Source: Myxococcales bacterium (GTDB lineage Bacteria; Myxococcota_A; UBA9042). From it: a DNA stretch of 45,095 nucleotides. Below the pieces are notes generated by a model. That model was not told where the DNA came from and ran no database searches. It saw only the letters and a program-made list of their open reading frames with translations. Numbering within the stretch: position 1 is the first letter of the stretch; every line of letters starts with the position of its first letter. The translations under genes were made by a program, and so were the position numbers. Location of the stretch: positions 1 through 45,095 of the forward strand of contig JAGSHB010000025.1 in assembly GCA_023954815.1 (NCBI GenBank), in the 5' to 3' direction. Shown piece after piece: positions 12,999-32,281 of the stretch.

Positions 12999-15900
12999 CT
13001 AGGGCTGGGGAACCGTCAACACGTACGCGGCGCCTTGATCGACCATCTTGCTCGTCTTTGGGGTTGCGGTGTAGCCGCTCATGACCACGACCGGCTTGCC
13101 TGCCTTCACCAGACCACCAGCGACGGTGTAGCCCAACTTGCCGCTGGGTCGATGGGATTCGCCAGCGATCGACATCATCGGATGCAGCGCCAGCCCGCTG
13201 TTTGCGTACCACCGAAACAACTCGGCGCCACCGGTGAGCGCGCCTGAGCGAACATTGCCGTTGGGGCTACCCACCAGCAGGCCAGCGCGGCCGTTCTTCT
13301 CCAAGCCTGGCACAAACGACACCGACCAACCGAATTGGCCTGCCGCCGTCTCACCGGACACGCTGAGCCGCAACTTACTGCCCGGCTGCGTCATCGGGTA
13401 GAGCTTCGCTGGCGGCTTGCCATCGACAATCGCCGTGGGCTTGAGGGTCTTGAGGTACTTGCCGGTGATCACCCACGCCGCGCCCACCGCTGCCGTGCCG
13501 TCTGAGAAGTTGTAGCCGCCCACCACAAGGTCGCCGAGCTTGTCGCCATCGATGTCAGCGCCTGAGTCCAATGAGATCCCTGCCCGCGCATTGGCTGTAC
13601 CCGCGGTGAGGACGACCTCGCGCGGTACGTTGGCCGCACAATTGGCGCCCCACCCGTAGACGATGTGCACCGTACCCTGGGCCGAAAGGCCGTGGTCTTC
13701 GCCATCGGCGCCCACCGCGAACTCATCGCAGCCGTCGCCGTCGATGTCGTGCAGCGCGGTGACCGATCGGCCCAAGTAATCATTGGATTTGGCGCCGATC
13801 TGCAGCTTGTTCGGGGCGCAAGCCACCCGGATACCCTGACTCGCTTTGGGGCGACCGTAGTACACCGCCCACCCGCCGGCGTTGGTGCGACCTGCGGCAT
13901 CCCAACTCAGCGCTGAGAGGACCAAGTCACCCTTGCCGTCGCCGTTGATGTCCATGCCCATGGCGATGCCGTCGGCGTATTGATTGGTCTGCGGTCCCCA
14001 CGCCACCCAGGAAGGGTTGGTGGTCGGCCAACCGCCTTTGTTGCCTTTGAAAATCCAGGCAGCCGCGGAGTTGTTCTTCGAAGGGCCGCACTTTGTGCCT
14101 TTGGTGTAGCCCGATCCGTGAGTGGTGGGCCTGTCATCCGCTCTCGCCATGACCGCTACATCGCGGAGGCCATCACCGTCGAAATCACCACCTGGCGCCA
14201 CCTTCCATGCGAAATAGTCATGCGCTGAATGGGAGTAGTGACCCACCGCTTTCCAAGCGGGCTTGCTGGTATCCACGCCAGCGGCGTTGCCCTTGTAGAC
14301 GTACATTGCACCCGCCCGTGTGCCGACGTAGGCAGGTTTGGCGCCAGCTGCGGCCTTGTTTGCGGGATCGAAGGGCGCGCAGACGGCGAGATCGTTGAAC
14401 CCATCGCCGTTGACGTCGCCGATAAAGCGCGAATCCCAGCCATAGCGATTGCCAGAGGCTTTGTTGGGCATTTGCAGGCCGCTCATCTTGGCGCCGGCTT
14501 TGCTCGGAACGAAATACGGGCGGCCGACGTTGTAGCCGAGAGTGTCATCTTGCCCAGCGAACGCGACCAGATCTGGCAGCTTGTCGCCGTCCAGGTCACC
14601 CACTGAATCCACAGACAATCCGAAGTAGTCACCGCCCTTGAGCCCAGAGTGGGTCTCGTTCGGTATCATCTTGGGCATCAAGCCCTTGCGACCGCTGAAC
14701 ACCATGACCGTGCCAGCGTTCACCGGCCCTTTGGGAACTTCGGCGTTGCCGCCGTGGACGAGCACATCCGGGATATCGTCGCCCGTGGCATCAGCGACGG
14801 CCACACGATAGCCAAAATAGTCGTAGTTATTCGGACCTTGGATGCTCCAGGCTGCTGATGTCGCGGACTCCACCTTGGTCGCTGGTTTGAGGCTCGACGA
14901 GGGTGCGTTGAAGATGCGTACGGCTCCGCGGCCCGGTTTTGCGGGCGATCCGCGCCAATTCAGCTGGCCGGCGACGAGCTCGTCCTGGCCATCCCCGTCG
15001 ATGTCTGCCAGGGCGATGCTGCGACCGAATTGCGTACCGTATTCGCCGGTCTTGGCGCCGGACCACATCCGCACGGGCTTGTCGGTTGGTCCACCGATGG
15101 ACTTCGCGTCCGCCTTGCGTCCGAGATAGAGAACCACGAGCCCGTCATTGGCTGTCTTGTCTTTGTAGTAGAGGCTACTGACGGCCAAATCGCAGATGCC
15201 GTCGCCGTTGGTGTCACCGGCGGCGACGTCCCAGCCGATGCGCGCATTGAAGACGGGTTTGTACACGCCCTTTGCGTCGGGAATCTCGCCGTAACGAACG
15301 ATGTCGGGCTTGTCGAGGTAGCCATCTTTGTGGCCTAGCCAGACCATGAGCGCGCCGACGGAGCTGACGATGGGTGTTTTGCCGCGGTCCTCTGCATAGA
15401 GCGCACCGCCAGCGATATCCATCACACCGTCGCCGTTCACGTCGCACACCGCGACGCCCCACCCGAGCTGGTCGCTGTTGAATGGGCCCTTCAAAATCGC
15501 CGTCGGCTTGGTGGAGAACTTGCCGCTTTTCAGGCCTTTGTAGACGTAGATGGCGCCGTTATTTGTCGTCCCCACGTCGGCCAGCGGTGCGCCCACGATG
15601 AGGTCGGCCCGCTTGTCGCCGTCGACGTCCTTGACCGTCAGACCATAGCCACCGAAGCGGGTGTCCTTGCCGGTGCCGTACAGGATTTGCGCCGGCTTTG
15701 GATCGAGACCGCCCTTCTTGCTGCGATAGAGGTAGACCGCGCCGCCGTTGTTGTCGTTGCCATCCGCTTCCGCGAGCCCCACCACGACCTCGTTGCCGCC
15801 GTCACCATCGAGATCAGGCACCGCGATGACGCGCGCGGCTTGGTAGCCATCGCCCGTCGTGGGCATCGCAACCTCCGTCGCTTTTTGAGCCGACAACCTC

Positions 15901-16988
15901 ACTTTGACGGACTTTCCGGTGAAGGTGTCCTTCACGGTCGCCATCACGACGCCAGCTTTGTTCGCACGAACACGCTTGGCAGACACCTTTGAAAAGGCCC
16001 CGGCAGGGACGGTCAAGACGTAGTGGCCTGAGCCGCCTGTTACGTTGACATCAGCCTCGCCGCCGAGCGGCACAGCCAGCCGCGGTGGTCGCGCATAGAG
16101 CATCGCGTTCTTGCGCACATGCACGACCGCAGCGGACTGCTCGCCTGTGGCGGTGTCCGTCACCTTGATCTGGTCGTCGCCGTCCTTGGAGCCAGCGACG
16201 TACTTGCCCGTGTTCTTGTTGAGCGAAGCGCCGGTCGCGTTGAGGGTGAAGCTGAACGCGAACTTGCCGGAGCCCTTCTTCACCGCGAATCCGATGGCTT
16301 GCTTGTAGCCAACCCAGGGGCTCAATGGCGCCATGGTGAGCGGTTCGACGACGGTGATGGTCGCCTTCGCAGTGCCGATGCAGCCCAAGTCCGAGAGCTC
16401 GATCTTGTCTTTCACCCCGGTTTTTGAGCCGCTGAGGTACGCCCCCGTATACTTGTTGAGCACAGCGCCGGATGCGTTGTTTGCCAACTTGTAGCGGTAG
16501 GCACCAGTGCCGCCCTTGCCGGAAAACGTCTTGAGGTCGTAGGGCAAAATCGTGCCTGAACTCGGCTGAACGACCAGGGCAGGGCTGCAGGGCTGCGGTC
16601 CTGAGACGGCATCTGGCTCAGGCCCAATGTCCTCTTCAATGTCCTTGCCGACGCTGGTGTCTACGCTGGCGTCGCTGGCCGTACCGTCGGAGGCTCCGCT
16701 GTCTGCCGTGCCGCTCGTATCGGCCGTCCCGGTGGTGTGGGTATCTTCCAGGGCCGCGTCATCCGCGCCGCTATCTTCGGTCGTATCCGCTGCAGCGTCG
16801 CTCACCTCGGCGGTGTCGTCCTGTGAACCCGAATCCGCTGGCCCGGCATCGACTTTTGTTTGCGTATCGGTCGCCTGCGTATCGGCGGGCGCAGGCTCCG
16901 TCTTTTCGGCTCCGCATCCGACCGTCAAAGTCAGTGCGAGTGCAATGAATGTCAGGGGTTGCATGATGTTGTTGGCGTGTTTTACCAT
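12999..16988 (-). CDS. Large FG-GAP (integrin-alpha-like) repeat lipoprotein
   Basis: A signal peptide ends in the lipobox LTVGC (Cys 25). About 105 residues of Asp/Ser/Thr/Ala-rich linker follow. Residues about 135-370 hold three Ig-like modules with the pattern GGTGxYRY...SGAVLNKYTGAYxSG. The rest, about 373-1329, contains 14 FG-GAP/VCBS repeats with calcium-type DxDGDGxxDLxVG loops, enough for two seven-bladed propellers (blade count is by eye, the fold is inferred). Late repeats lose the Asp loop (LEKNGRAGLLVG and the last one). The start ATG 16988 has a GAGGG site. Predicted to be outer-membrane anchored and exposed, in adhesion or matrix binding. Divergent from the 17184 operon. Confidence 0.87.
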   Translation of the reverse strand: MVKHANNIMQPLTFIALALTLTVGCGAEKTEPAPADTQATDTQTKVDAGPADSGSQDDTAEVSDAAADTTEDSGADDAALEDTHTTGTADTSGTADSGASDGTASDASVDTSVGKDIEEDIGPEPDAVSGPQPCSPALVVQPSSGTILPYDLKTFSGKGGTGAYRYKLANNASGAVLNKYTGAYLSGSKTGVKDKIELSDLGCIGTAKATITVVEPLTMAPLSPWVGYKQAIGFAVKKGSGKFAFSFTLNATGASLNKNTGKYVAGSKDGDDQIKVTDTATGEQSAAVVHVRKNAMLYARPPRLAVPLGGEADVNVTGGSGHYVLTVPAGAFSKVSAKRVRANKAGVVMATVKDTFTGKSVKVRLSAQKATEVAMPTTGDGYQAARVIAVPDLDGDGGNEVVVGLAEADGNDNNGGAVYLYRSKKGGLDPKPAQILYGTGKDTRFGGYGLTVKDVDGDKRADLIVGAPLADVGTTNNGAIYVYKGLKSGKFSTKPTAILKGPFNSDQLGWGVAVCDVNGDGVMDIAGGALYAEDRGKTPIVSSVGALMVWLGHKDGYLDKPDIVRYGEIPDAKGVYKPVFNARIGWDVAAGDTNGDGICDLAVSSLYYKDKTANDGLVVLYLGRKADAKSIGGPTDKPVRMWSGAKTGEYGTQFGRSIALADIDGDGQDELVAGQLNWRGSPAKPGRGAVRIFNAPSSSLKPATKVESATSAAWSIQGPNNYDYFGYRVAVADATGDDIPDVLVHGGNAEVPKGPVNAGTVMVFSGRKGLMPKMIPNETHSGLKGGDYFGLSVDSVGDLDGDKLPDLVAFAGQDDTLGYNVGRPYFVPSKAGAKMSGLQMPNKASGNRYGWDSRFIGDVNGDGFNDLAVCAPFDPANKAAAGAKPAYVGTRAGAMYVYKGNAAGVDTSKPAWKAVGHYSHSAHDYFAWKVAPGGDFDGDGLRDVAVMARADDRPTTHGSGYTKGTKCGPSKNNSAAAWIFKGNKGGWPTTNPSWVAWGPQTNQYADGIAMGMDINGDGKGDLVLSALSWDAAGRTNAGGWAVYYGRPKASQGIRVACAPNKLQIGAKSNDYLGRSVTALHDIDGDGCDEFAVGADGEDHGLSAQGTVHIVYGWGANCAANVPREVVLTAGTANARAGISLDSGADIDGDKLGDLVVGGYNFSDGTAAVGAAWVITGKYLKTLKPTAIVDGKPPAKLYPMTQPGSKLRLSVSGETAAGQFGWSVSFVPGLEKNGRAGLLVGSPNGNVRSGALTGGAELFRWYANSGLALHPMMSIAGESHRPSGKLGYTVAGGLVKAGKPVVVMSGYTATPKTSKMVDQGAAYVLTVPQP

Positions 16989-17183: not shown

Positions 17184-18677
17184 ATGCCCCGTCAGGTCAC
17201 CCCATCTATGTCGAGCATACGCGACGTCGCCATGGGAAAGTGGAATCGGTTTGAATTCGGACTTTTGCGGAACTCATTCGATACTGTGAAGATGCTAGGG
17301 CTCGTGTTGGCGCTCAGTGCACTGGGTTGCTCGGCTGAGCCGGCCGCAGATGCTCCGATTGGTTTTGACGGCGGTGGGGCTGATGTGGCCATGGTCGATG
17401 GCGGCGTCTCCGATGGCGGCAGTGGCGGCGACACCAGTGGCGCGCCTGATGCCGGGTCGACTGACGCTGGTCTGTCGGATGCCGGCACGGAGGACGTTGG
17501 AACGTCGAGTTCAGCCGACACGCAAGTCCCAGAAGAGGATGCAGGGCCGCAGGACGTCTTCCCTTTGAACCCTGGTTCGCCGGTCAAGGCCATCACAGAG
17601 AAAGTGAGCGCCGGCCCGTGGACGTTCGCCGCACCGAGTCACGGAGACGTGAATCTGGCGGTCAATAGCAAGGGCGAAGTGAAGCTCGTCGGGCCCTTGA
17701 AGGGGCAGGTGGATCCCATCGTAGGTGGTGCAAGTAAACCCACCGAGGTGATCCGCTTTGGCGGCATGGTGTACCTCGCTGATGCCACCGGATTGCGCGG
17801 CATTTTGAGCGGCAAGCTCAAGTTGTCACCGCTGGCGGAGTTCCTACCGAAAAAGCCGATCACGGTGATGCGAGCCCGCAAAACCGCCGCCGGCGACGAT
17901 TTGTGGCTTGTCGTGGGGGATGCGCTGCTGCTGTATCGGGGAGGCAAGCTGTTCACGGTGACGGCGCCCAAAATGCAGGTTGCTGGCGCTCACTTGACCT
18001 TCGGGGGCGACGTTGAAGGCGGCCCGGCTCTCTGGGTGGGCGGCAAGGGCGGCCTGCACGCCATCAAGGTCACGGGCGGCAAAGTTACGGCGTGGCCGTA
18101 CCTGCTCGGGCGCAAAGTGGACGGTGTGCACGTCGACGCGAAGGGGCGAGTGTGGGCGGCCAGCAAGGGCGAGCTGCTGCGCAGAGACGCGCCCGGCCAA
18201 TGGACGACCCATGTGCCGAAGCACGGTCCCAAAGCGATCTGGGGACGACCGGGCGACGCAGCTTTCTGGGTGGCCACCGAGACCATGTTGCTGCGCTGGG
18301 AAGCGGGTGAACTGCACGAGGTACAGGGGGCACCAGCGGTCGCTGATTGGCGCATCGACGCTGCCGGTCGCCTGACCGGGCTCGATCTCAAGGGCGCGCT
18401 GGTTCGCGTGCAGACCACCAAACCCGTGGCCAAGCCGAAAGTCACGTGGAAGGGCGACATCGCCCCGCTCTTCGACAACTCGTGCGCTCAGTGTCACGGT
18501 ATCGACGGGGTCAATACGAAGCTGCACTCCTCAGCCCTGTGGAAGAAGAACTTCGCAAATATTTTAAAGAATGTGGAGAGCGGCGCCATGCCGTTGTCGC
18601 CCAAACAGCCCCTCACGCCAGGCGAGATCGCGCTGATCAAGGCCTGGAAGTCCGACGGATTTAAGGAGTCGCCATGA
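17184..18677 (+). CDS. Lipoprotein with C-terminal cytochrome c-like CxxCH domain
   Basis: The lipobox LSALGCSAEP places the lipidated Cys near residue 49 if translation begins at ATG 17184, which has a well-spaced GGAG site. GTG 17286 or ATG 17292 would give a more normal signal peptide but lacks a ribosome site. An Asp/Gly/Ser/Ala linker follows, then about 300 residues with beta-propeller-like repeats (for example LWVGGKGGLHAIK and GRVWAASKGELLRR). The last 75 residues contain one haem-binding motif, CAQCH (434-438), with a downstream MPLSPKQPLTPGEIALIKAW segment typical of the cytochrome c-like domain in planctomycete-type PSCyt1 proteins. Probably outer-membrane or surface electron transfer. 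First gene of a four-gene operon; its stop overlaps the next ATG. Confidence 0.8.
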   Translation: MPRQVTPSMSSIRDVAMGKWNRFEFGLLRNSFDTVKMLGLVLALSALGCSAEPAADAPIGFDGGGADVAMVDGGVSDGGSGGDTSGAPDAGSTDAGLSDAGTEDVGTSSSADTQVPEEDAGPQDVFPLNPGSPVKAITEKVSAGPWTFAAPSHGDVNLAVNSKGEVKLVGPLKGQVDPIVGGASKPTEVIRFGGMVYLADATGLRGILSGKLKLSPLAEFLPKKPITVMRARKTAAGDDLWLVVGDALLLYRGGKLFTVTAPKMQVAGAHLTFGGDVEGGPALWVGGKGGLHAIKVTGGKVTAWPYLLGRKVDGVHVDAKGRVWAASKGELLRRDAPGQWTTHVPKHGPKAIWGRPGDAAFWVATETMLLRWEAGELHEVQGAPAVADWRIDAAGRLTGLDLKGALVRVQTTKPVAKPKVTWKGDIAPLFDNSCAQCHGIDGVNTKLHSSALWKKNFANILKNVESGAMPLSPKQPLTPGEIALIKAWKSDGFKESP

Positions 18678-20254
18678 AGAGCCTCTCGCGCGTCATTGCG
18701 CTGGCCCTCGCCCTTTGGGTGTTGCCAGCCGCGGCGGTCGCCACTCCGCCGATGAGCAATCCGCTGCAGGTGTGTCCGGTTGACGCACCCAAGCTCGATC
18801 GCTTCACCTTCCTGCGATCGCTCAGCCTCGACTTGCGCGGCAACGTGCCAACGGTCGGCGAGCTGCAGCAGCTCAAGGGGCACAAGGATGTGCCGGAGAG
18901 CACCATCGACGCGTGGCTGTCGTCCGATGAGTTCGCTGTGCAGGCTGTGCGCCGTCACCGCGATCTGTTCTGGAACAACATCACCAACGTGCGTGCGCCA
19001 GCAAATCCGACGTACTTGCGTAAGTCTGGGCAGTTGTACTGGCGCAGTGGCGGCAACGTCGCCATTTACGTGCGCGGCGATCGCGTACCGTGCCTCAACA
19101 AGCCAGCGACATGGGACGCCGACGGTCAGATCGAGTACACCGAGCAAGCCGATGGCACCAAGCGTGAGGGCTACGTGCTGGTGTCGCCGTACTGGGCCCC
19201 GAACAACAAGATCAAGGTCTGCGCGCACGACGCGCAAGCCATCAAGGTCTCCCCAGCGGGCAAGACCTGTGGCGGTTACGGCACCTACCACGACCCGCAC
19301 TGCGGCTGCGGCCCGAATCTGCGTTGGTGCCACTACGGAGCGTCGAATACGGTGCTCATGCAGTCCTTCTCCAACAGCCTCGACCGCTCTGTTGCTGAGC
19401 TTATCAAGAAGGACGCGCCCTACATCGAGCTGTTCACCAACAAGACGATGTGGGTCAACGGACCTATCGTGTTCTTCTACCAGCACCAGCTTCATCAAAC
19501 TCGAATTCGCATGGAGCCGGCGCCGTTCGACGTGAGCAAGCTGCCGAAGCTCGCCTACACCGACATCAACAAGTGGGTGGAGATTCCGCTCGGATCGCAG
19601 CACGCCGGTGCGCTAACGCACCCGGCTTTCTTGCTGCGCTTTCAGACCAACTTCGCCCGCGCCAACCGCTTCTACAACACGTTCCTCTGCCAGCCCTTCC
19701 AGGCGCCTGCGAGCGGCATCGATGTGTCGGCGGTCACGGCCACGAGCCAGCCCGATCTGCAGCAGCGGCCGGGTTGTAAGTACTGCCACGCGCTGCTCGG
19801 TCCCGTGTCGTCCTACTGGGGTCGTTGGACGGAGAGCGGCGCTGGCTTCCTCAACAAGGCGGACTTCCCAGCCACGCGGGCCGATTGCGAGACGTGCGCC
19901 AAGACCGGGCAGCTCTGCAGCACTGAGTGCCGCCGTTACTACCTGACCAAGGCCACCGCCGACCCAGAAAAACCCTTCCTCGGCATGCTGAACGCCTACG
20001 TGTTCCGGCAGGACGTGCACAAGCACTACATCGAGCAGGGACCGAGGCTCATGGCCCTCGGCGCCGTGGCTGACAATCGCTTGCCCCGCTGCGTGGCTAA
20101 ACGCACCGCTGAGTGGCTCGTCGGACGCCAGCTTCAGGGCAAGGAGCTGGAGTGGGCACAAGAGCTCGCCCTGGACTTCGTCAAGAATGGCTACCGATTC
20201 CGCTCTTTGGTTCGCGACATCGTGACCAGCGACATCTACCGGAGGGTGCGATGA
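18674..20254 (+). CDS. Exported DUF1549/DUF1588-like protein with one CxxCH haem motif
   Basis: After a Sec signal peptide (ALALALWVLPAAAVA), the FLRSLSLDLRGNVPTVGEL segment matches the N-terminal DUF1549-type signature (RLSLDLxGxxPT). Near the middle, HAGALTHPAFLL...FYNTFLC resembles the DUF1588 segment, followed by a CKYCH haem motif at 368-372. There are two further Cys clusters, CGGYGTYHDPHCGCG near 197-211 and CETCAKTGQLCSTEC after the haem site, which could form disulphides or bind metal. Length is 526 aa. An AAGGAG site precedes the ATG within the upstream gene, and the stop overlaps the next ATG. The family's function is unknown; a periplasmic or surface redox role is inferred from the haem motif and neighbours. 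Confidence 0.78.
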   Translation: MKSLSRVIALALALWVLPAAAVATPPMSNPLQVCPVDAPKLDRFTFLRSLSLDLRGNVPTVGELQQLKGHKDVPESTIDAWLSSDEFAVQAVRRHRDLFWNNITNVRAPANPTYLRKSGQLYWRSGGNVAIYVRGDRVPCLNKPATWDADGQIEYTEQADGTKREGYVLVSPYWAPNNKIKVCAHDAQAIKVSPAGKTCGGYGTYHDPHCGCGPNLRWCHYGASNTVLMQSFSNSLDRSVAELIKKDAPYIELFTNKTMWVNGPIVFFYQHQLHQTRIRMEPAPFDVSKLPKLAYTDINKWVEIPLGSQHAGALTHPAFLLRFQTNFARANRFYNTFLCQPFQAPASGIDVSAVTATSQPDLQQRPGCKYCHALLGPVSSYWGRWTESGAGFLNKADFPATRADCETCAKTGQLCSTECRRYYLTKATADPEKPFLGMLNAYVFRQDVHKHYIEQGPRLMALGAVADNRLPRCVAKRTAEWLVGRQLQGKELEWAQELALDFVKNGYRFRSLVRDIVTSDIYRRVR

Positions 20255-21114
20255 ACACCATGACGTTCTCTGGGGCTCGTATGATGGCCCTTGCCTCTAC
20301 CCTTGCCTTCGCGGCGTGTGCCGAGGCCCCGGTTCAGCAGGTCCAGACCTTGCCAGCCGCCGAAAAAACTGCCGATAAACCGGCGGAAAAGGTCGAAAAG
20401 CAGCCGGAGGCTGGCCAGGAGGCCAAGGCGACGGAGAAGTTGCCGACAGCCCACGAAAATGGTCCGCGGGTCAATCCAGACCAGCGCTCCGGCAAGGTGA
20501 CGACCGGCACCGTGGTCGATCTCAAACCACTCGACGAGCCCGAGGCGACCGAAGGCGGGGCCACTGGCGGAATCGCAGTGGGAATGGCACCGACCGATCC
20601 GCCTGCGGCTCGTGTGCGTCGCCGGATGAACATCGACCAGCTCGACGCGGCCCTGAAGCGGGTCACAGGTGGGCCGGGCTGGGTGGCGGCCAACAAGAAA
20701 AATGAGCTCACGACGCTATCGTTGACCTTGGGTAAGCCCAACTACACCGACATGACCACCGAGGACCTCGAGCCCTCGGCCCTGTTCCAGAAGTTCCTAG
20801 CTGACGCTGCTCAGTCGGTGTGCATGAAGGTTGCCGCTGGTGATATGGCGCAAAAGACCGCCAGCAAGCGCAACCTGATGCGCCATGTCAGCCCGAAGGA
20901 CACGTGGGCGAGCAATCCGAAGGCGGTCAATGCAAATCTGGCATGGCTGATGCTGCGTTTTCACAGTCGGATGGTCGCACCAACGGCGACAGAGCTAGAG
21001 CCGTGGCGATTCCTATTTGAGACGGCGACCAAAGTGTCGGGCAACAAGCCAGACCAAGCGTGGCGTACGGTGTGCGTCGCCTTGGTGGTGCACCCTCACT
21101 TCTACACGTACTGA
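20251..21114 (+). CDS. Small lipoprotein of the CxxCH/DUF1501 operon
   Basis: The start is ATG 20251, which overlaps the upstream stop (ATGA) and has a GGAGGG site. A longer in-frame ORF from 20113 would run deep into the previous gene and hide the signal peptide. The signal ends in the lipobox LAFAAC. A Lys/Glu/Pro-rich linker follows (about 25-105), then a globular region of about 180 residues without CxxCH. The final VALVVHPHFYTY resembles the end of DUF1553/DUF1585-like proteins (LLxxPxFLYY), which suggests that this gene supplies a split-off C-terminal half of the domain set found fused in planctomycete homologues. That reading is an inference; the protein itself is not recognised. Confidence 0.7.
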   Translation: MNTMTFSGARMMALASTLAFAACAEAPVQQVQTLPAAEKTADKPAEKVEKQPEAGQEAKATEKLPTAHENGPRVNPDQRSGKVTTGTVVDLKPLDEPEATEGGATGGIAVGMAPTDPPAARVRRRMNIDQLDAALKRVTGGPGWVAANKKNELTTLSLTLGKPNYTDMTTEDLEPSALFQKFLADAAQSVCMKVAAGDMAQKTASKRNLMRHVSPKDTWASNPKAVNANLAWLMLRFHSRMVAPTATELEPWRFLFETATKVSGNKPDQAWRTVCVALVVHPHFYTY

Positions 21115-21181
21115 TCGCTGTGCAAGCGGGGCACCCCGCAGCAATTCCTCGGAGCATCGCTCCACCAGATGAGGCCGGACC

Positions 21182-22618
21182 ATGAAGCATGACGACGAAA
21201 GGCTCGCTGAGTTCACCCGCAGGCGCTTCTTGCGACGCGCCATGGCTGCCGGAGCTGGCGCGCTGAGCCTAGGCGCCATCCCTGGTCCGTTGATGGACCT
21301 CGGTTGGGCAGCAAACAAAGCGGCGGCGACCTCCTCCCCCAAGGTGAAGGACCGCTACTACATCTTCTGCTACTTCTCGGGCGGCTGGGACACGCTGCTG
21401 AGCCTCGATCCGCGTGATCCGGTGAAGTTCAGCAAAGGTAAGGTCGCGGTCACGCACATCGATCCGGCGTACGAGCAGCTGAACAATCCGCCCAACGGTG
21501 GCAAGCCCGTCAAGGTGAAGGGCGCTGGCGGTAAGATCGCCGAGTTCGGCCCGTACATCGGCGATTTGGAGAAGCACTTCGACAAGTTCTCGGTCGTGCG
21601 TGGTCTCAGCATGGACACATTGACCCACGAGGTCGGTCGTCGTCGCTTCCTCACCGGCAAGCCGCCGAGTGGTCTCCTGGCGCGTGGTTCGTCCGGTGCG
21701 ACATGGCTTGCGGGCTTGCTTGGCGAGACCGAGATCATCCCCAATCTCGCGGTGCGGGTGGAGAGTTACAACACAAGTCAGCCCAACTTCGCCACGGGCC
21801 TCAAGGTCAACAACGTGCCCGACCTGCTGCGCTCGCTGAAGGTCGACAAGGCGGCGCTGTCGCCGAAATTGGAGCAGCTGGTCAATCTGACGGTGGCGCA
21901 GTCCGCCGGATGTGGGCAGGCGAAGGCCTCGAAGATGTGGCAGGGGGCGGAGACCTCACGGCAGAAAGCCCGCGCGATGGTCAATGGTGGACTCGACGAT
22001 CTCTTCGCGTTCCAGGCCAAGACGCCCGCGATGACGGCGCTGCGCAACCACTACGGCATCAAGGCGTATGGTAGTGCGGCTTTGCAGACACCTCAGGCTC
22101 AGGCGGCCATGGCGGTAACGGCGATTACGGCGGGCATCAGCCGCGTCTGCAGCGTGCAGTTTCCCGTCCTCGACGCCCACTTCGACGACTGGGCGACGAC
22201 CCACGGTCCGCAACAGCAGGCCGGATTTAACACCATCGCTCGAATGCTGGAGGACCTGCAAAAACGCAGCTATCCCGGTGGCGGCACGTGGCTCGACCAT
22301 ACGACCATCGTCGCGTTTTCGGAGTTCAGCCGTACGCCGATGATCAACCAGCGCGGCGGTCGTGATCACTCGCTGACCAACGCCTGCTTGGTGGCTGGGG
22401 CCGGTATCAAGGGTGGCCAGGTCATCGGTGCGAGCGCGGATATTGCGCTAGCTCCGACGAAGACCAACGTCAGCACCGGCGAGTCAGACAACAGCAACGG
22501 CGAGATCATCAAACCGGAGCACATCTACAGAACGCTGCTGCATGACATCGGAATTACATCCGATGTGGCGGATATGCGTGTACCACCGATCACCGCGCTA
22601 CTGAGCAAGTCTACCTAG
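21182..22618 (+). CDS. DUF1501 family protein, Tat-exported
   Basis: The N terminus carries a twin-arginine signal, TRRRFLRRA at 12-20 followed by a short Ala/Gly hydrophobic region, so the protein is exported folded. The body matches DUF1501 (alkaline-phosphatase/sulfatase-like fold): YYIFCYFSGGWDTLLSLDPRD near 58-78, a VVRGLSMDTLTHEVGRRRFLTG segment, VAFSEFSRTP near 378, and GRDHSLTNACLVAGAGI. DUF1501 proteins accompany DUF1549/DUF1553/PSCyt1 proteins in planctomycetes and relatives, with no established substrate. A GAGG site precedes ATG 21182, 67 bases after the previous gene. It is the last gene of the 17184-22618 operon. Metal-dependent hydrolase activity is possible but not shown. Confidence 0.85.
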   Translation: MKHDDERLAEFTRRRFLRRAMAAGAGALSLGAIPGPLMDLGWAANKAAATSSPKVKDRYYIFCYFSGGWDTLLSLDPRDPVKFSKGKVAVTHIDPAYEQLNNPPNGGKPVKVKGAGGKIAEFGPYIGDLEKHFDKFSVVRGLSMDTLTHEVGRRRFLTGKPPSGLLARGSSGATWLAGLLGETEIIPNLAVRVESYNTSQPNFATGLKVNNVPDLLRSLKVDKAALSPKLEQLVNLTVAQSAGCGQAKASKMWQGAETSRQKARAMVNGGLDDLFAFQAKTPAMTALRNHYGIKAYGSAALQTPQAQAAMAVTAITAGISRVCSVQFPVLDAHFDDWATTHGPQQQAGFNTIARMLEDLQKRSYPGGGTWLDHTTIVAFSEFSRTPMINQRGGRDHSLTNACLVAGAGIKGGQVIGASADIALAPTKTNVSTGESDNSNGEIIKPEHIYRTLLHDIGITSDVADMRVPPITALLSKST

Positions 22619-22701: not shown

Positions 22702-24759
22702 ATGCGTAACTTTCTCCCAGCAAACTCCGTACTTATGGTCGCGACTGCGCTAGCGCTTTGGGGCTGTGGTGTTTCGTCTTCGTCGACCCCGCCAAAGGTG
22801 ACAGGGGCCGGTGGTGACGCCACGACCGCCGCAGACAGCACGCATCAGATTTCCGATAGCCAGGAAGCCACAGACGTCGGTAGCGGCGGTGTGTGCGGCG
22901 ACGGGGTCTGCGATGACCTAGAATCCACTGCCAGCTGCCCCAAGGACTGCAAAGCCAAGCCAGGGGTTTCCGGCTGCCTCGAGAGCAAGTGCAGCAGTGC
23001 GATGAAGAGCTGTTTCGGTGACAAGACATGCGCCTTCTTCGTCGACTGTGTGGCCAAGTGCGGGGACGTGTCTTGCATTCAGTCGTGCGTCCAGCAAGGC
23101 GGCCAGCCGACGCAGGCAAGCAAGAGCGTGCTGCAATGTGGCTCGAAAGCGGGTTGCTTCAAGGACGACAAGCTGACCTGCGGCAACGGTACGTGTGATG
23201 CGGGTGAGACCGCGGCGAGCTGCAAAGCCGACTGTGGCGGCGGGCTGTGCGGCAACGGTAGTTGCGAGCCAGGTGAGGACGAGAAGTCTTGCCCATTGGA
23301 CTGTGGCAACAAGCCGCCGAAGTGCGGCAACGGTAAGTGTGAACTCGGTGAGAGCCAAAAGTCGTGCCCGCAAGACTGCGGTAGCAAGCCGCCCTTTTGT
23401 GGCGATGGTCAGTGCACCAAGGGTGAGACGCCTCTCAACTGCAAACAGGACTGTAAGGCCTACAGCTTTTGCGGCAACGGCAAATGTGAGCCCGGCGAGA
23501 CGGCGGCGAACTGCAAGAAGGATTGTGCCACCAAGCCAGCAGACCCCATCGCGTGCGCGCAAAAACATTGTCCCAAGGAGTTCGCGCTCTGCCTGGGTCA
23601 GACCCAGTGCGCACAGTTGGTGAAGTGCTTCGCAGGATGTGGCACCGATGAAAGCTGCCTGAATAAGTGCGCTAGCAGTGCAGGCGACGTGCCGCCGCCC
23701 GGATTTATGGTCTTGTCCCAATGCGCGCAGAAAAGCGGGTGCGGTGGTGAGCAGCCTCAGTGCGGCGATGGGAAGTGCGAAGGGCCGGAGGAAAACGCCA
23801 AGAGCTGTCCAGTTGACTGCCAACAGCCACCCTTCTGCGGCAACGGCAAGTGTGAAAGCCCCATGGAGAGCGCCAAGTCGTGCCCAAAGGACTGCGCCAA
23901 GCCCTTTTGCGGCAACGGCAAGTGCGATCCAGGCGAGAGCTCGCTCAACTGTGCCAAGGACTGTGGCGGCGGTAGCGATGTCCTCAAGTGCGCGCAGAAG
24001 ACCTGCGGCTCAGCCTACAAGAAGTGCGCAGGCAGCAAGTCGTGCGCCAATGCCCTCTCCTGTCTGGCCAAGTGCACCACGAGTCAGTGCATGCAGGGAT
24101 GCGCGCTCTCCGCCCAGGGAGACTTTCAAACCTTTATCGCCCTGGCGCAGTGCGCTCAGAAGGCCGGCTGCCTATCCGGCGGTGGCGGACAATGCGGCGA
24201 CGGAAAGTGCTCCGACGGAGAGAGCCCACAGACATGCCCGCAAGATTGCTCGCCCAACAAATGTGGCGATGGCCATTGCACGCCCGGCGAGACGCCCCAG
24301 AATTGCCCCAAGGACTGCAAGAAGAACCAGTGCGGCGATGGCAAATGCAACTTCCCCAACGAGACGTCTCAGAACTGTCCGAAGGACTGCAAGAACGCCA
24401 GCCTGACGTGCAAGAATTCCTGCGGCAAAAAGGCGCCAAACTGCTGGTGCGACAATCAGTGCGAGCAAATGGGGGACTGCTGCCCAGACAAGAAGTTGTA
24501 CTGTGGCGCGGCGTCTCAGTGCGGCAACGGCAAATGTGAGCCAGGTGAGACGACGCAGAGTTGCGCGAAGGACTGTCCGCCCAAGCCGGTGTGTGGCAAC
24601 GGACTCTGTGAGGCGCCGTTCGAGAGCTCGAAGACCTGCCCGAAAGACTGCGGCGCGCCGCTCAAGCCCTGCAAGACCAAGAACGACTGCACCTCAAGCG
24701 AGATCTGCTGCATCAAGGCCAACGGAAACTTCTGTGTGCCGTCCGGGCAGTGCTTCTAG
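22702..24759 (+). CDS. Cys-rich lipoprotein with 14 CGNGxC repeats and a somatomedin-B-like domain
   Basis: Signal peptide with lipobox ALWGCG. By eye I count 14 copies of the repeat CGxGxCxxGExxxxCxxDC, whose Asp/Asn/Glu spacing could bind calcium. These are interrupted by three copies of a second Cys module of about 60 residues (CxxKxC...CxxxxxCAxxxxCxxKC...CAQKxGC) near residues 92-155, 289-350 and 431-493. At about 570-602 a segment has the somatomedin-B pattern: CxxxCGxxxxxCxCDxxC followed by GDCCPDK and a final Cys. The C terminus has CCIKANGNFC. Probably disulphide-rich, outer-membrane anchored, for adhesion or matrix contact. An AGGA site precedes the ATG; 83 bases separate it from the DUF1501 gene. 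Confidence 0.83.
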   Translation: MRNFLPANSVLMVATALALWGCGVSSSSTPPKVTGAGGDATTAADSTHQISDSQEATDVGSGGVCGDGVCDDLESTASCPKDCKAKPGVSGCLESKCSSAMKSCFGDKTCAFFVDCVAKCGDVSCIQSCVQQGGQPTQASKSVLQCGSKAGCFKDDKLTCGNGTCDAGETAASCKADCGGGLCGNGSCEPGEDEKSCPLDCGNKPPKCGNGKCELGESQKSCPQDCGSKPPFCGDGQCTKGETPLNCKQDCKAYSFCGNGKCEPGETAANCKKDCATKPADPIACAQKHCPKEFALCLGQTQCAQLVKCFAGCGTDESCLNKCASSAGDVPPPGFMVLSQCAQKSGCGGEQPQCGDGKCEGPEENAKSCPVDCQQPPFCGNGKCESPMESAKSCPKDCAKPFCGNGKCDPGESSLNCAKDCGGGSDVLKCAQKTCGSAYKKCAGSKSCANALSCLAKCTTSQCMQGCALSAQGDFQTFIALAQCAQKAGCLSGGGGQCGDGKCSDGESPQTCPQDCSPNKCGDGHCTPGETPQNCPKDCKKNQCGDGKCNFPNETSQNCPKDCKNASLTCKNSCGKKAPNCWCDNQCEQMGDCCPDKKLYCGAASQCGNGKCEPGETTQSCAKDCPPKPVCGNGLCEAPFESSKTCPKDCGAPLKPCKTKNDCTSSEICCIKANGNFCVPSGQCF

Positions 24760-25503: not shown

Positions 25504-28500
25504 CTACGGCGCCAGGCACACACCCTTCTTGCAGCTGCCGCCCTTGCCGCAGGCCGTACCGTCGTTGACGGGGGCGTTCTGGCAGCCACCGGTCGACGGG
25601 GTGCAGCTGTCGATGGTGCAGCTTTCGTCGTCGTCACAGTGCTTTGCCTCGCCGATGCACTTGCCGCCGGAACACTTACTCGACGATGTGCACAAGTTAC
25701 CATCGTTGCAGCTGCTGCTCTCCTTTGCAGGATCATGAGCGCACTTGCCGGTTTTCGGGTCGCAGTTGTCGACTGTGCATGGGTCGCCGTCGCCACAGGG
25801 TGGTGCCTTGCCGGACTGGCACTTGCCGCCCATGCATTGGTCATTGAGCGTGCAGAGGTTGCCGTCGTCGCACGCGCCATCGCTGAGCGCCGCAAACACA
25901 CACTTGCCCGTCTTGGCATCGCAGCTATCGACGGTGCACTGCTCCGTGTCGTAGCAGGCCTTCTTCGCGCCAGCCTTGCACGTGCCCTTGTCGCAGACGT
26001 CCTGCAATGTGCAGGAGCTGCCGTCTTCGCAGACTGTGCCCGTCGTCGGCGTGTGGGTGCAGCCGTTGGCCACGCTGCAGCTGTCCTTGGTGCAGGCGTT
26101 GCCGTCATCGCACGGCGCGGTCTGCTTGCCGAGGCACTTGCCGTTCTTGCACAGGTCATTGGCCGTGCAGGTGTCGTCGTCGTCGCACTTGTTGCTGTCA
26201 TTGGGCTTGTGGATGCAACCCAAGTTCACGTCGCAGACATCGTCGGTACAGGCGTTCTTGTCGTTGCAGTCCTTGACCTGCCCGGTGCATTTGCCGCCGA
26301 GACAGTAGGTATCACTGACGCACTTGCCGCCGTCGGTGCACTTGGGTGTGCCGCTCGCTGGCGGGAAGACGCAGCCCTTGTCCTTGTCGCAAGCGTTCTG
26401 CGTGCAAGGATTGTTGTCCTCGCAGGGCAGGGTGCTTGTGCCGAGGCAAGAGCCGCCCTTACAGAAGTCGCCCGATGTGCAAATGCTGCCGTCGTTGCAC
26501 TGGTTGCTGTCGTTGTTGACGTGCTGGCAGCCCTTTTCGTTGTGACAGCTATCGACGGTGCAGGCGTTGTCGTCGTCACAGTTGCGCGGCGGACCGCTGA
26601 TGCACGTGCCCTCCTTGGTGCAGCCATCGTCCTTGGTGCAGGCGTTGCCGTCACTGCAGGGCTTGCTCTGGTTCTTGTCCTGCCAGGTCACGCGGTACTT
26701 GAATGTGATGCCAGCCGGGTTGGTGAGCAGATTTGAGCCCGCTTTGCCGATGTTGGTCACTTCACAGAGCAGGCGGTTGGTGCCTTTCTTGAGCGCCGTA
26801 CCCATGGGCTGGCTCGCTACCTGAGCCCAGGGCTTCGCGGTGGTCGACTTGCCGATCAGCAGCCCATTGAGGCGGCAGATCCAGCCTTCATCGCCAGCGA
26901 CCTCAAACACACCTTTGAGCTCCTCAGCGTCCTTGGAGACCTCGAACTTCTGCTTGAAGAAGACGGTCTGATTCTTGGTCGGGTCGGTGACGATTTTCTC
27001 GTTCCAAATCCAAGTAGCGCCCTTGATGTGCGCCCACTCTGGATGCTTGTCGTAGGTCGCCACAGCTGGCTTGAGGTTGGTGGGCACCAGCACGCCGCCG
27101 TCGATCTTAAACGTCGTCGTCGCCTCGGTGTTCGTGCCGCTCACACCGCCGATGGTCACCACCACGCCTGGCTTCTCAGGCACGTGCACGCAGCCCGTCA
27201 GCTTGGAGCAGGTGTCCTTGGTGCAGCCGTTGTCGTCGTCGCAGTCCGCTGGGCCCTTGATGGTGCACTTGCCACCCACACAGATGTCGCCGCCGGTACA
27301 CGCGTTGCCGTCGGAGCACGTCGCGCCGTCGTTGTCGCTAAACACGCAGCCTTTCGTCGGATCGCACTGGTCCTTGGTGCAGGGGTTGTCGTCGTTGCAC
27401 TTGACCCCGTTGAGGCCGGTGCACTTGCCCTTGTCGCAGACATCCAGCGCCGTGCAGGCGTTGTCATCATCACAGCCTAGCTGCGAGACGCTGAAGGTGA
27501 GATCCACGCCAAAGAGCAAGCCAGCAGGATTGGATTCTGACGTCGCACCGCTCGCGCCCTTATTCGTGACTTTGCAGCGGATGGTGTTGGCGCCGAGCAC
27601 CACGATGGACGAGGCGTTGATGGTCTGGAGTTTGCCAGCACCATGCTGGGCGCCACTGTGGCTGCCGACGTTCTTGCCGTTGAGTGTACAGCTGTAGTCA
27701 TGGTCACCGGACACCGAGAAGGAGCCCTGCAGGCTCTTCGCGCTCGATGGCACCGAGAAGCTGCGCTCAAACCACACCGTCTCATCCTTTGTCGGTGCCT
27801 GAACCTTGGCGTCCCGCCAGATCCACTTGGCCCCAGTCAGGGCCGCAGTCCAGCTTGGGTGGCTGCTGTAGGTCACGACCGCAGATTGCAGGTTGCCAGG
27901 CGCTTGCTGCCCCTGCTCGAGCTTCCATGTGGTCCATGTCTGGGTCTGGAAGTCGGAGCGCACAGTGAGCTTGACAGTGCTTGTGCCCGTAGCCGGCGTG
28001 TAGGTGCAGCCGTCTTTCGCATCGCACGAATCCACGGTGCACTTGGTCTCGTCCTTGCACTCCGCCAGCGGTCCAGCGACGCAGCTGGTCTTGGCGCATT
28101 TGTCACCCTCCGTGCACGCGTTGTCGTCGTCGCACGGATCGCTGTTGGCCTTGTGGGTGCAGCCCAGCTTGGAGTCGCAGGCGTCGGTGGTGCAGTTGTT
28201 GCCGTCATTGCAGTTCAGGCCGCCACTGGAGGTGCACTTGCCGCCAGCGCAGACGTCCACCTTGGTGCACTTGTTGCCGTCATCACACTTGGTGTCGCCA
28301 GCGTTCTCGTGCACGCAACCCTTACCGACCTCGCATTTGTCCAATGTGCACAACTGCTTGTCGTCGCAGTCAGTCGTCCCATCGCCTTTGCACTTGCCGT
28401 CCTTGCACTTGTCGGCGGCGGTGCATGGCTCCCCGTCATCGCAGCTGTTTGTGTCGTCGTTGACGTGTGAGCAGCCCTTCTTCGGATCACAGGGGTCGTC

Positions 28501-31500
28501 CGTGCACTGCAGGTCGTCGTTGCAGTCGAGCACGCCAACACCCTTGCACTTACCCTGGTTGCAGCGATCGCCGGTGGTGCAGACGCTGCCGTCATTACAG
28601 CTGACTTTGTTGAACGGGAACACGCAGCCCTTTGTCTTATTGCAGACGTTGCTGGTGCAGTGGTTGCCGTCGTTGCAAGTCTTGCCGGTGCCCTTGCAGC
28701 TACCGGTCTTACAACTGTCGCCGACCGTGCAGGCATTGCCGTCGTTGCAGGAGACTGGCCCCAAGAACTTGTGCGCGCAGCCCTTGGTCGGGTCGCAGCT
28801 GTCCTTGGTGCAGACGTTGTTGTCATTGCAGCTGCGCTTTTGACCCGTGCATTTGCCCTGGTAGCAGACATCCGTGATCTTCTTGTAGTTGTACCAATAC
28901 GTTTGACTGAACGTGCACGCGTTGCCATCGTCGCACTTGATGAACGGCTTGTAGGGCGCCGCTTTGTACAAGCACTTGCCCGACAGCTTGTCGCACTTGT
29001 CCACCGTACAGACGTTGTTGTCGTTGCAGATAGCCTGCTGCGTGGCTTTGCATTCGCCGTCGTCGCAGCTGTCGTTCAGCGTGCAGAGATCGCCATCGGT
29101 GCATTCGGCGCCCTTGGCCAGCGGTTTGTACACACACACGCCGAGGTTCTTGTCGCAGGAGTCGGTCGTACACTCGTTGCTGTCGTCGCACAGCTTGGTG
29201 CCGCTGGGCAGGCAGTAGCCGTTCTTACAGACGTCCGTCAGCGAGCAGGCGTTGCCATCGTCGCATTGCTTGCCGTTGCCTGTGGCGATCTGCTTGCAGT
29301 CTCCGGTGAGCGGAACGCACACACCCTTGGTGCACGGGCTACCGTCGTCGCAGTTGGGCACGGGTCCAGACTCGCACTTGCCGTTCTTGCACGAGTCGCC
29401 CTTGGTGCATTTCTGCCCATCTTCGCAGCCGAGTTTGTCAAACGCAGGCTTGGCGCCGCATTGGCCAGTCTTTGGGTCGCAGACATCGAGCGTGCAAGGG
29501 TTGTCGTCATCGCACTTCTTCGCTTTGCCCGGCTTGCAGCCGCCGTCCACGCAGACGTCGCTGGAGGTGCAGGCGTTGCTGTCGGAGCATTTCGGGCCAC
29601 TGAGCGGCAAGAAGGCGCAGTTCCCTGTCTTCGGGTTGCACACGTCATTGGTGCATGTGTCGTTGTCCGAGCAGTTCTTGTAGATCTTACCCTTTTGGCA
29701 GGAGCCGTCCTTGCAGGCGTCATTCTGGGTGCAGAGATCGCCGTCGTAGCAAGGCGCTTTGTTGAACACAAAGTCGCAGCCCTTCACTGGGTCGCAGGTG
29801 TCATCCGTACAGGGGTTGGTGTCTTTGCAAACCACCTGCTTGCCGGGCGCACAGGCGCCTTCGGTGCAGTAGTCACCCTGGGTACACACGGACTCATCCG
29901 CTTCGCAGGCCGAGCCGTTGGGCTTGGACGAACCCTCGCACTTTCCGCTCTTCGGGCTACAGGAAAACGTCGTGCAGGCCGTATTTTTCGACGGATCGCA
30001 GATGACCACCGTGTTGGTGTCGACTTTGCACTTGTTGACCGTCTTGTCGCAGAACAGGGTGCCGTTGCACAGGTTGGCGTCTTCCTTCTTCAGGCAATCG
30101 TCGTCCTGCTGGCATTCGCAGGTGTTCTTGCCCGACGTGCATTTACCAGCGCCGCAAGCGTCACCCACCGTGCAGGCGTTGCCGTCATCGCAGACGGACG
30201 TGTTGGGCGTGAAGACGCACTTGCCAGTCTTGGGATCGCAGGTGTCATTGGTGCAGACGTTGTCGTCGTTGCAGTACAGCGGCGGCCCAGTCGTGCAGGT
30301 GCCTTTCTTGCAGGCGTCGCCCTGGGTGCAGGCGTCGGTGTCGGTGCAGATGACGTTGTCGGCGGCCAAGTTGGTTTCACACTTGCCGGTCGCGGTGTTG
30401 CAGGCGTTGAGTGTACACACGTTGCCGTCACTGCAGTTTTTCAGTTGGCTACCTTCGCATTTGCCGTCGGAGCAGCCATCCACGAGTGTGCACGGATTGC
30501 CGTCGTCGCATTTCTGAGTGTTCGCCTTGAACACGCACTTGCCGGTCTTGTCGTCACAGCTATCGGACGTACAGGGCTGGCTGTCACTGCAGAGCTTGCT
30601 GACGCCGGGGCTGCAATTACCAGCGATGCAGTTGTCGCCCAGGGTGCAGGCGTCGCCGTCTTCGCAGGTTTGTCCGCTGTTGTTTTCGTGGAAGCACAGG
30701 CCGGTGTTGGTGTCGCACTTGTCGATCGTGCAGAGCTTATTGTCTTCGCAATCGGTCGCCTTGCCGATGCACGTGCCGCCTTTTTCGCAGACGTCTTGAT
30801 TGGTGCAGGGGTTGCCGTCATCGCAGACCTCGCCCGTCGCGCTCACCTCGAACTTGCACTCGCCGGTTTCCTTGTCGCAGGTATCGACCGTGCAGGCGTT
30901 GCCGTCATCACAGTCTTTGGGCTTGCCCGTTTTGCATTTGCCCTTGACGCACGAGTCGTTCAACGAGCAGGCGTCGCCGTCATCACAGAGTGACGCGATG
31001 GCTGTCGCTGTGCAGCCGTCGGCCAACCCCACGACCAACTTCGGGTCGCACACATCCTTCGTGCATGGGTTGCCATCGTCACAGACTGTCGCGATGCCCG
31101 GCTCGCATTTGCCGTCTTTGCATTCGTCGCCCGTCGTACAGGCCTCGCCATCGTCGCAGTTCTTCGAGTTGTCGCTGTACTTGCAGCCATCGGCCTTGGT
31201 GCAGTAGTCGCTGGTACAAGGGTTGTTGTCGTTGCACTCTGGCCCCCCTTCTCCCTTGCATTTGCCCTCTTTGCAGGCGTCATTGTCGGTGCAAGCGCTG
31301 CCATCATCGCAGGCGCCTTCGATATCGGTCGTGACGCAGCCCTTGCTCGCTTCGCAGGTTCGAATGGTGCAGGGGTTCTTGTCGTCGCAGTCTCGTGGTC
31401 CACCCGGTATGCAGACGCCCGCTTTGCAAGCATCACCTTTGGTGCACGCGTCGCCGTCGGAGCAGGTCGTGTTGAGGTTGCTGTGGCTGCAGCCGTCGCC

Positions 31501-31600
31501 CTTTTCGGTGGGCAGATCGGGATCGCAGCCGTCCATGGTGCACGGGTTGTCATCGTCGCAGGCGCCTTCATCGGTCTCGCCGTCGCAGTCGTTGTCCTTG
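25504..31600 (-). repeat. Degenerate tandem coding repeats (DGNACT array)
   Basis: The Cys-rich gene is a long array of related units of roughly 105-160 bases. The DNA word GTGCAGGCGTTGCCGTC, encoding DGNACT on the minus strand, recurs exactly at 26090-26106, 26636-26652, 30170-30186 and 30890-30906, and its reverse complement occurs at 1257-1273 in the other giant gene. Identity at the codon level points to duplication or gene conversion rather than protein-level convergence alone. Confidence 0.75.
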
Positions 31601-31998: not shown

Positions 31999-32281
31999 GG
32001 AGACTCCCGGCGCAGGACAGATGTCACGCGTAAAACGAGCGCCCAGTGAAGTGGGGAAGTCTCCAGTTGGTCGCACGCAACCCAGAGGATACGAAAGCCC
32101 GACCGCTCACGACAAGCGCTAGCGACACGACGGCTAGATTACGGACAAGATGATGGGTATTCCCGGCCACCTAGCGCTCCGCTGGTGGAGCCACCAAAAC
32201 GCAGCCGACAAGGGGATCCAACCTCGAACTACGGGGCGGAGTATCAAATGTGTAGAAAAATGCAGGCGGGGAATCTCGTCC
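31999..32281. other. Intergenic region upstream of the giant Cys-rich gene
   Basis: This 283-bp gap separates the M2 peptidase stop (32282) from the Cys-rich gene's ATG (31998), both on the minus strand, so the promoter of the Cys-rich gene should lie here. I cannot name -10/-35 boxes with confidence. A perfect palindrome, TGGTGG-AG-CCACCA, lies at 32183-32196 and could be an operator or part of a terminator for the M2 gene; no T-run follows it on the minus strand. Confidence 0.4.

Follow-up and report, generated by a model that had tools for sequence, protein, structure and literature searches.

Four consecutive forward-strand genes (g1 to g4) in a contig of a Myxococcales bacterium (assembly GCA_023954815.1, contig JAGSHB010000025.1; the whole stretch analysed, 45,095 nucleotides, is referred to as the window) represent a four-part form of a known kind of system, in which a fused PSCyt protein is accompanied by a DUF1501 protein. 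The locus is real and conserved. As far as sequence comparison can tell, g1, g2 and g3 are parts that relatives carry in one polypeptide beside a DUF1501 gene, and it is very probable that the locus is, in its anatomy, a fused module cut into separate genes, with DUF1501 as its partner. The initial annotation, made from the window alone, had proposed such a split and had placed it outside its usual planctomycete setting; it is partly supported. The proposed split is essentially correct, and the kinship, the partner, the gene association and the export signals also stood up, but the setting is ordinary for Myxococcota, and a frequent fifth neighbour (a lipoprotein with FG-GAP repeats) and a variant gene order (g1-g3-g4-g2) had been missed.

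Organization of the locus and its fused relatives

The first gene (g1, 17184-18677, +) encodes a lipoprotein with internal repeats that suggest a propeller and, at its C-terminus, a cytochrome c domain with one haem site, identified by Pfam and an alignment of homologues. It is followed by g2 (18674-20254, +), whose product is Sec-exported, cysteine-rich and mono-haem, with a DUF1549-like N-terminal part, a DUF1588-like centre and an end resembling DUF1585 and the N-terminus of DUF1553; by g3 (20251-21114, +), a lipoprotein that appears DUF1587-DUF1595-like from weak DUF1595 matches in homologues and from profile-profile comparison; and by g4 (21182-22618, +), a DUF1501 protein by Pfam, exported by twin-arginine translocation (Tat), with an alkaline-phosphatase-superfamily fold predicted from a structural model. 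The g1/g2 and g2/g3 junctions are ATGA overlaps, and a gap of 67 bp separates g3 from g4. The start of g3 is the ATG at 20251, versus a GTG at 20113 in the mechanically derived open reading frame (ORF), and the true start of g1 is probably later than annotated, near 17287. All the coordinates and motifs first described (four genes on one strand, two ATGA overlaps, the haem motifs CAQCH and CKYCH, two lipoboxes, a Tat signal and DUF1501) hold. The Sec, Tat and lipoprotein signals are read in the sequence: the lipobox cysteine of g1 (LSALGC; 17328-17330, +) is C49 of the ORF as annotated, and that of g3 (FAAC; 20317-20319, +) is C23, which has a non-ideal -3 position yet is invariant in 21 homologues. 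Cytochrome c assembly genes and TatC genes are present in this genome. A scan for promoters and terminators gave results at chance level only.

The split reading is carried by natural fusions, some from Vibrionaceae and others from the bacterial family to which this genome belongs. Seven single-chain relatives of 767-871 amino acids (L138, L137, L128, L136, L027, L020 and L028) contain, in this order, an N-terminal cytochrome c motif, a g2 region and a g3 region, and a DUF1501-like gene was detected behind at least four of the seven. The parts, their order and the kind of partner are shared with the locus, and the differences are that a single gene is used and that no propeller is recognised. 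In hhalign comparisons with the fused proteins, g2 aligned to columns 217-585 (E = 3e-44) and g3 to columns 608-747 (E = 2.6e-9), as against E values of 0.2-0.8 for reversed and column-shuffled profile controls; this profile-profile comparison places both products in kinship with the PSCyt superfamily.

Two plasmid-borne fusions, in Vibrio maritimus BH16 (2327 amino acids) and Photobacterium sp. DA100 (~2299 amino acids), were found by tblastn of a fused protein against plasmids and were matched by the fused-protein profile with E = 8e-103 and 5e-111, respectively. Like the locus, both giants combine a propeller (GSDH-like, below cut-off), cytochromes, g2 and g3 parts and a directly adjoining DUF1501 gene, and both also contain LamG. 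They differ from it in being one protein of ~2300 residues with carbohydrate-binding modules (CBMs): CBM96 and GbpA_2 in the Vibrio giant; PA14 and CBM35 matches, both sub-cut-off, in that of Photobacterium. In the V. maritimus plasmid (L163 4982-17459), tatABC lies upstream of the gene for the giant, at a distance of ~3-4 kb.

The same genome encodes elsewhere two canonical DUF1592-type proteins, each followed by a protein that, as its sequence reads, is DUF1552-like. A second g2 match in this genome, in C72, is a canonical DUF1592-type protein and was rejected as an operon copy on that ground; no second g2-containing operon copy was found. Since g3 resembles the DUF1587-DUF1595 part of the canonical proteins (hhalign, E = 8e-5) and g2 their DUF1588-DUF1585 part, the two parts stand in reversed order there: in the DUF1587-DUF1595-DUF1592-DUF1588-DUF1585 chain g3 corresponds to the N-terminal and g2 to the C-terminal part, and the partner is DUF1552-like instead of DUF1501. 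The order cytochrome-g2-g3 with DUF1501 therefore resembles the planctomycete DUF1549-DUF1553 arrangement with DUF1501. What the locus shares with the PSCyt1-DUF1549-DUF1553/DUF1501 system of planctomycetes and Verrucomicrobia is the DUF1501 partner, an exported haem protein, a DUF1549-like start and a DUF1553-N/DUF1585-like end. A g3-like part would presumably sit C-terminally in those proteins, and the cut between g2 and g3 would fall inside the DUF1553-like stretch. The system differs in being one polypeptide where three genes are found here, the g2 matches are all sub-cut-off, and the locus has in addition the propeller-like extra on the cytochrome and two lipoproteins.

Properties of the four products

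The kinship of g2 to DUF1549, DUF1588 and DUF1585 is genuine, but its signal in the protein of the window is faint. The match to DUF1549/PSCyt2 (PF07583; E = 3e-5, 24.4 bits, below the cut-off of 29.8) makes g2 a relative and not a member by score; that to DUF1585/PSD2 (PF07624; E = 1e-5, 25.6 bits) is just below its cut-off of 25.8, and that to DUF1588/PSCyt3 (PF07627; E = 0.13, 13 bits) is below a cut-off of 27. Together with a DUF1553 match confined to the last residues, the DUF1549 and DUF1585 matches span E values from 1e-5 to 6e-4, all sub-cut-off. These weak matches recur among 21 homologues (DUF1549 in 20, DUF1585 in 17 and, weakly, DUF1588 in 9), and profile-profile comparison (hhalign) of g2 with the canonical DUF1592-type proteins gave E = 9e-24, reversed and column-shuffled controls giving 0.2-0.6. 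Besides its Sec signal g2 has many invariant cysteines. Its haem c site (CKYCH; 19775-19789, +) lies at the start of helix 369-382 of the AlphaFold model (pLDDT, the predicted local distance difference score, 93.4); C368, C371 and H372 are invariant in 74 homologues, and CxxCH is kept in 79/79 full-length homologues. A fold search with this model gave no match at E ≤ 0.001, the best hits (Z 3.8) being phycobilisome linker domains, too weak to use; both ends of g2 together weakly resemble these domains (Z 3.8; sequence E 0.23). A sequence search of the PDB with g2 and g4 gave no significant match.

The C-terminus of g1 matches Pfam Cytochrome_CBB3 (E = 3e-6, 27.9 bits versus a cut-off of 27). 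It has the two features of a class-I-like c-type cytochrome, namely a CxxCH motif (CAQCH; 18483-18497, +, from sequence), present in 50 of 58 homologues, and a distal methionine, M469 in an MP motif, which is nearly invariant in the homologue alignment. The linker after the lipobox is variable and Asp/Ala-rich. Repeats of the form xLWxGxxGL look propeller-like; a Reg_prop match was obtained for 1 of 13 members (0.048). The g3 product of the window has no Pfam match by itself; PSD5 (DUF1595) was weakly matched by 3 of 21 homologues (best 0.0031). It carries an RxNxDQL motif, and C191 and C275 are invariant.

The DUF1501 partner was correctly named at the outset: g4 is a member of the family (PF07394; E = 7.6e-28, 98.2 bits versus a cut-off of 27). 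The twin arginines of its Tat signal (R13-R14 in TRRRFLRR; 21218-21223, +) are at least 90% conserved, and RRx[FLVIW] is found near the N-terminus in 72 of 76 homologues. The g4 model (pLDDT 92.1) was closest to Xac NPP of Xanthomonas (7n1s; Z 20.0, 246 residues, 3.1 Å), then to other NPPs, phosphatases and sulfatases, which predicts an alkaline-phosphatase-superfamily fold. With this superfamily g4 shares, beside the predicted fold, invariant Asp and His residues: all 67 homologues compared keep D70, H149, D331, H333, E381, D395 and H396, and by this invariance Asp395-His396 (GRDH; 22364-22369, +) are candidate metal ligands with D70, D331, H333 and E381. A difference seems to lie at the nucleophile. 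In the NPP family the first Thr of T-x-P-A-H-x4-T-G is the nucleophile. This motif occurs in the NPP-type relatives, and the same spacing to TG in g4 lands on His149 (21626-21628, +), so that a histidine apparently replaces the Ser, Thr or formylglycine that normally serves as nucleophile in the superfamily. Profile alignment of g4 with NPP and sulfatase sets, which comprised only 6 and 7 sequences taken from related genomes, gave no match, and the residue equivalence of His149 therefore rests on the motif register. If g4 does work with a histidine at this position, its chemistry would be new to a superfamily that has been studied intensively.

Conservation and distribution

A scan of 84,980 species genomes with exact back-translated patterns yielded 80 loci that were kept. 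Their source labels are Myxococcota, Deltaproteobacteria, Proteobacteria (one is labelled Rhodobacterales) or metagenome-assembled genomes of bacteria without placement; because the patterns are exact back-translations, remote homologues from other phyla may have escaped the scan. The conserved association of the four genes, expected from the initial reading, was recovered in that g2, g3 and g4 occur together in 61/61 fully flanked loci. The orders among these are 1234 in 39, 234 in 13, 1342 in 7 and 342 in 2. The variant g1-g3-g4-g2 (g3-g4-g2 where g1 is undetected) is seen in L099, L102-L106, L108, L109, L111 and L112, L106 being cut; hosts with g2 behind g4 comprise Paraliomyxa, Sandaracinus-type and other loci. 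Paraliomyxa miuraensis, with the order g3-g4-g2, is the one cultured host found. The recurrence of the association in all 61 loci, along with the CxxCH kept throughout the g2 homologues, rules out that the four genes are adjacent by chance. Over 70 loci the distance matrices of g2, g3 and g4 are correlated at r 0.82-0.88, where permutations reached 0.17 at most; the species phylogeny contributes to this correlation.

A first search of 53 genomes gave full-length or long relatives of g2 in 16, the source genome included (E ≤ 4.6e-87), and g3 and g4 stand behind g2 in every one of those relatives; at E ≤ 1e-3 the number of genomes was 19. Of 379 sampled genomes of the phylum, 202 were matched at any strength by the g2 profile, 81 of them at E ≤ 1e-80. 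The module is common within Myxococcota, a large phylum living in soil and water, and is therefore not displaced from planctomycetes, contrary to what was first supposed; the canonical DUF1592-type/DUF1552-like pairs elsewhere in the same genome also speak against an unusual setting.

Neighbouring genes of the 80 loci were clustered. Beyond a giant FG-GAP-repeat lipoprotein, only clusters of 2-4 loci were obtained; the largest neighbour cluster consisted of antisense shadow ORFs and was discarded. In the window the FG-GAP lipoprotein (12999-16988, -; FG-GAP E = 2e-52) is divergent from g1 and is the sole full-length copy in its genome. Of 48 loci that allowed the test, 26 have a relative of it next to the module in divergent orientation; since it is absent from nearly all more distant loci, it is regarded as a lineage-specific partner. 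A cysteine-rich lipoprotein with many CGNGxCExGE repeats is encoded directly downstream of g4 (22702-24759, +), with a similar gene at the same place in 3 of 80 loci only.

Possible function

No function is yet known for the PSCyt, PSD and DUF1501 proteins, of which planctomycetes and Verrucomicrobia have large numbers. Rhodopirellula baltica has 41 copies each of the PSCyt2 and PSD1 domains, which have been tied to redox reactions by inference only (PMC2754498), and He et al. described CBMs on PSCyt proteins of Verrucomicrobia, function not known (PMC5615132). In the literature mentioning DUF1501 or DUF1549/DUF1553, as far as its incomplete coverage extends, no description of this operon was found, which does not prove priority. 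The Myxococcota form cuts the giant protein into pieces of 290-530 residues and has a cultured host, so that each part could be separately expressed, deleted and assayed.

We give roughly even chances to the view that the locus is a single envelope-anchored redox/hydrolase (di-haem/metallohydrolase) module acting on a polymer. That its task is the processing of a polymer or polysaccharide is proposed more tentatively; the Vibrionaceae fusions, in which propeller, cytochrome, g2 and g3 are joined, point to carbohydrate as the substrate, a direction that comes from these fusions and the literature and not from the Myxococcota loci. In such a module g1 and g3 would tether the assembly to the membrane through their lipids, and g1 to g4 would form a complex. 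The propeller of g1 and, if present, the FG-GAP lipoprotein would bind the polymer, most likely a polysaccharide. After folding and metallation in the cytoplasm and export by Tat, g4 would attack the polymer, or a substituent on it, with a two-metal site, and the haems of g2 and g1 may accept or donate electrons for an oxidative step and exchange them with the respiratory chain. The most far-reaching version, a five-part outer-envelope machine found across the phylum (FG-GAP adhesin, propeller-cytochrome, haem core of unmatched fold, lipoprotein and DUF1501 enzyme with histidine as a substitute nucleophile) in which electron transfer and the attack on the polymer would be coupled, is improbable on our estimate; we know of no described enzyme system with this coupling.

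Several observations weigh against the redox/hydrolase module. With His149 in place of a nucleophile, g4 could perhaps be no hydrolase. No catalytic redox site was identified, and two single haems may merely relay electrons. The propeller of g1 is inferred only, because the Reg_prop signal is weak, and g1 itself was not detected in 15 of the 61 fully flanked loci. Finally, the Myxococcota operon itself encodes neither a CBM nor a sugar enzyme, and nothing in its flanks identifies a substrate.

Among the alternatives, envelope or exopolysaccharide maturation, in which DUF1501 would modify a glycan of the cell itself and the haems would serve redox sensing or cross-linking, is unlikely, though it fares best. 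DUF1501/DUF1800 genes are described as co-located and co-transferred with bacterial chitin synthases (PMC5122149), and the g4 fold list also includes MCR-1, LtaS and BcsG, which decorate envelope polymers. However, a polymer synthase is absent among the conserved neighbours in the 80 loci, and DUF1800, tried as a partner, had no match above cut-off in 28 related genomes. Somewhat less credit is given to an electron-donor role, with the cytochromes feeding secreted oxidative enzymes such as lytic polysaccharide monooxygenases (LPMOs), along the lines suggested for Cbp2D of Cellvibrio, and g4 acting as an accessory. Mono-haem, exported, CBM-bearing relatives are known, as this role would have it, but neither an LPMO nor another secreted oxidase is among the conserved neighbours, and the strict tie to DUF1501 would be left unexplained.

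There is little to recommend a degenerate or structural module, in which g4 lacks a nucleophile, the haems are structural and the whole is a scaffold or adhesin acting with the FG-GAP protein. The histidine at the nucleophile register, the FG-GAP lipoprotein next to 26 of the 48 loci and the richness of g2 in invariant cysteines would fit it; the strict invariance of the candidate metal ligands of g4 and of the haem site of g2, and the near invariance of that of g1, argue for chemistry instead. Haem-dependent oxygenation of lipids or polyisoprene in the manner of RoxC (lipoproteins that have one more haem, at the N-terminus) is least probable of all: the RoxC model NF051462 does match the N-terminal part of the seven fused relatives (best E = 1.4e-10), but the match is limited to positions 1-164 of 812, i.e. 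the lipoprotein part and first haem, with scores of 23-40 bits where the cut-off is 900, g1, g2 and g3 have no match to it and both RoxC proteins tested lacked rubber oxygenase activity (PMC10837239). The rubber oxygenase reading, with a match that does not extend past the first haem domain, was dropped. RoxC is a putative rubber dioxygenase group without known activity, and the fused PSCyt proteins share its N-terminal lipoprotein/first-haem part.

Other genes of the window

Dictyostelium CTDC repeats are numerous in two large proteins of this bacterium, one encoded at 90-4358 (+; E = 9e-33), which has NHL repeats as well, and one at 25504-32076 (-; E = 7e-94). A full-length peptidase M2 of the angiotensin-converting-enzyme type is encoded at 32282-34270 (-; E = 1.5e-211), and a 947 amino acid protein with nine MopE-type copper-binding motifs at 38654-41497 (-).

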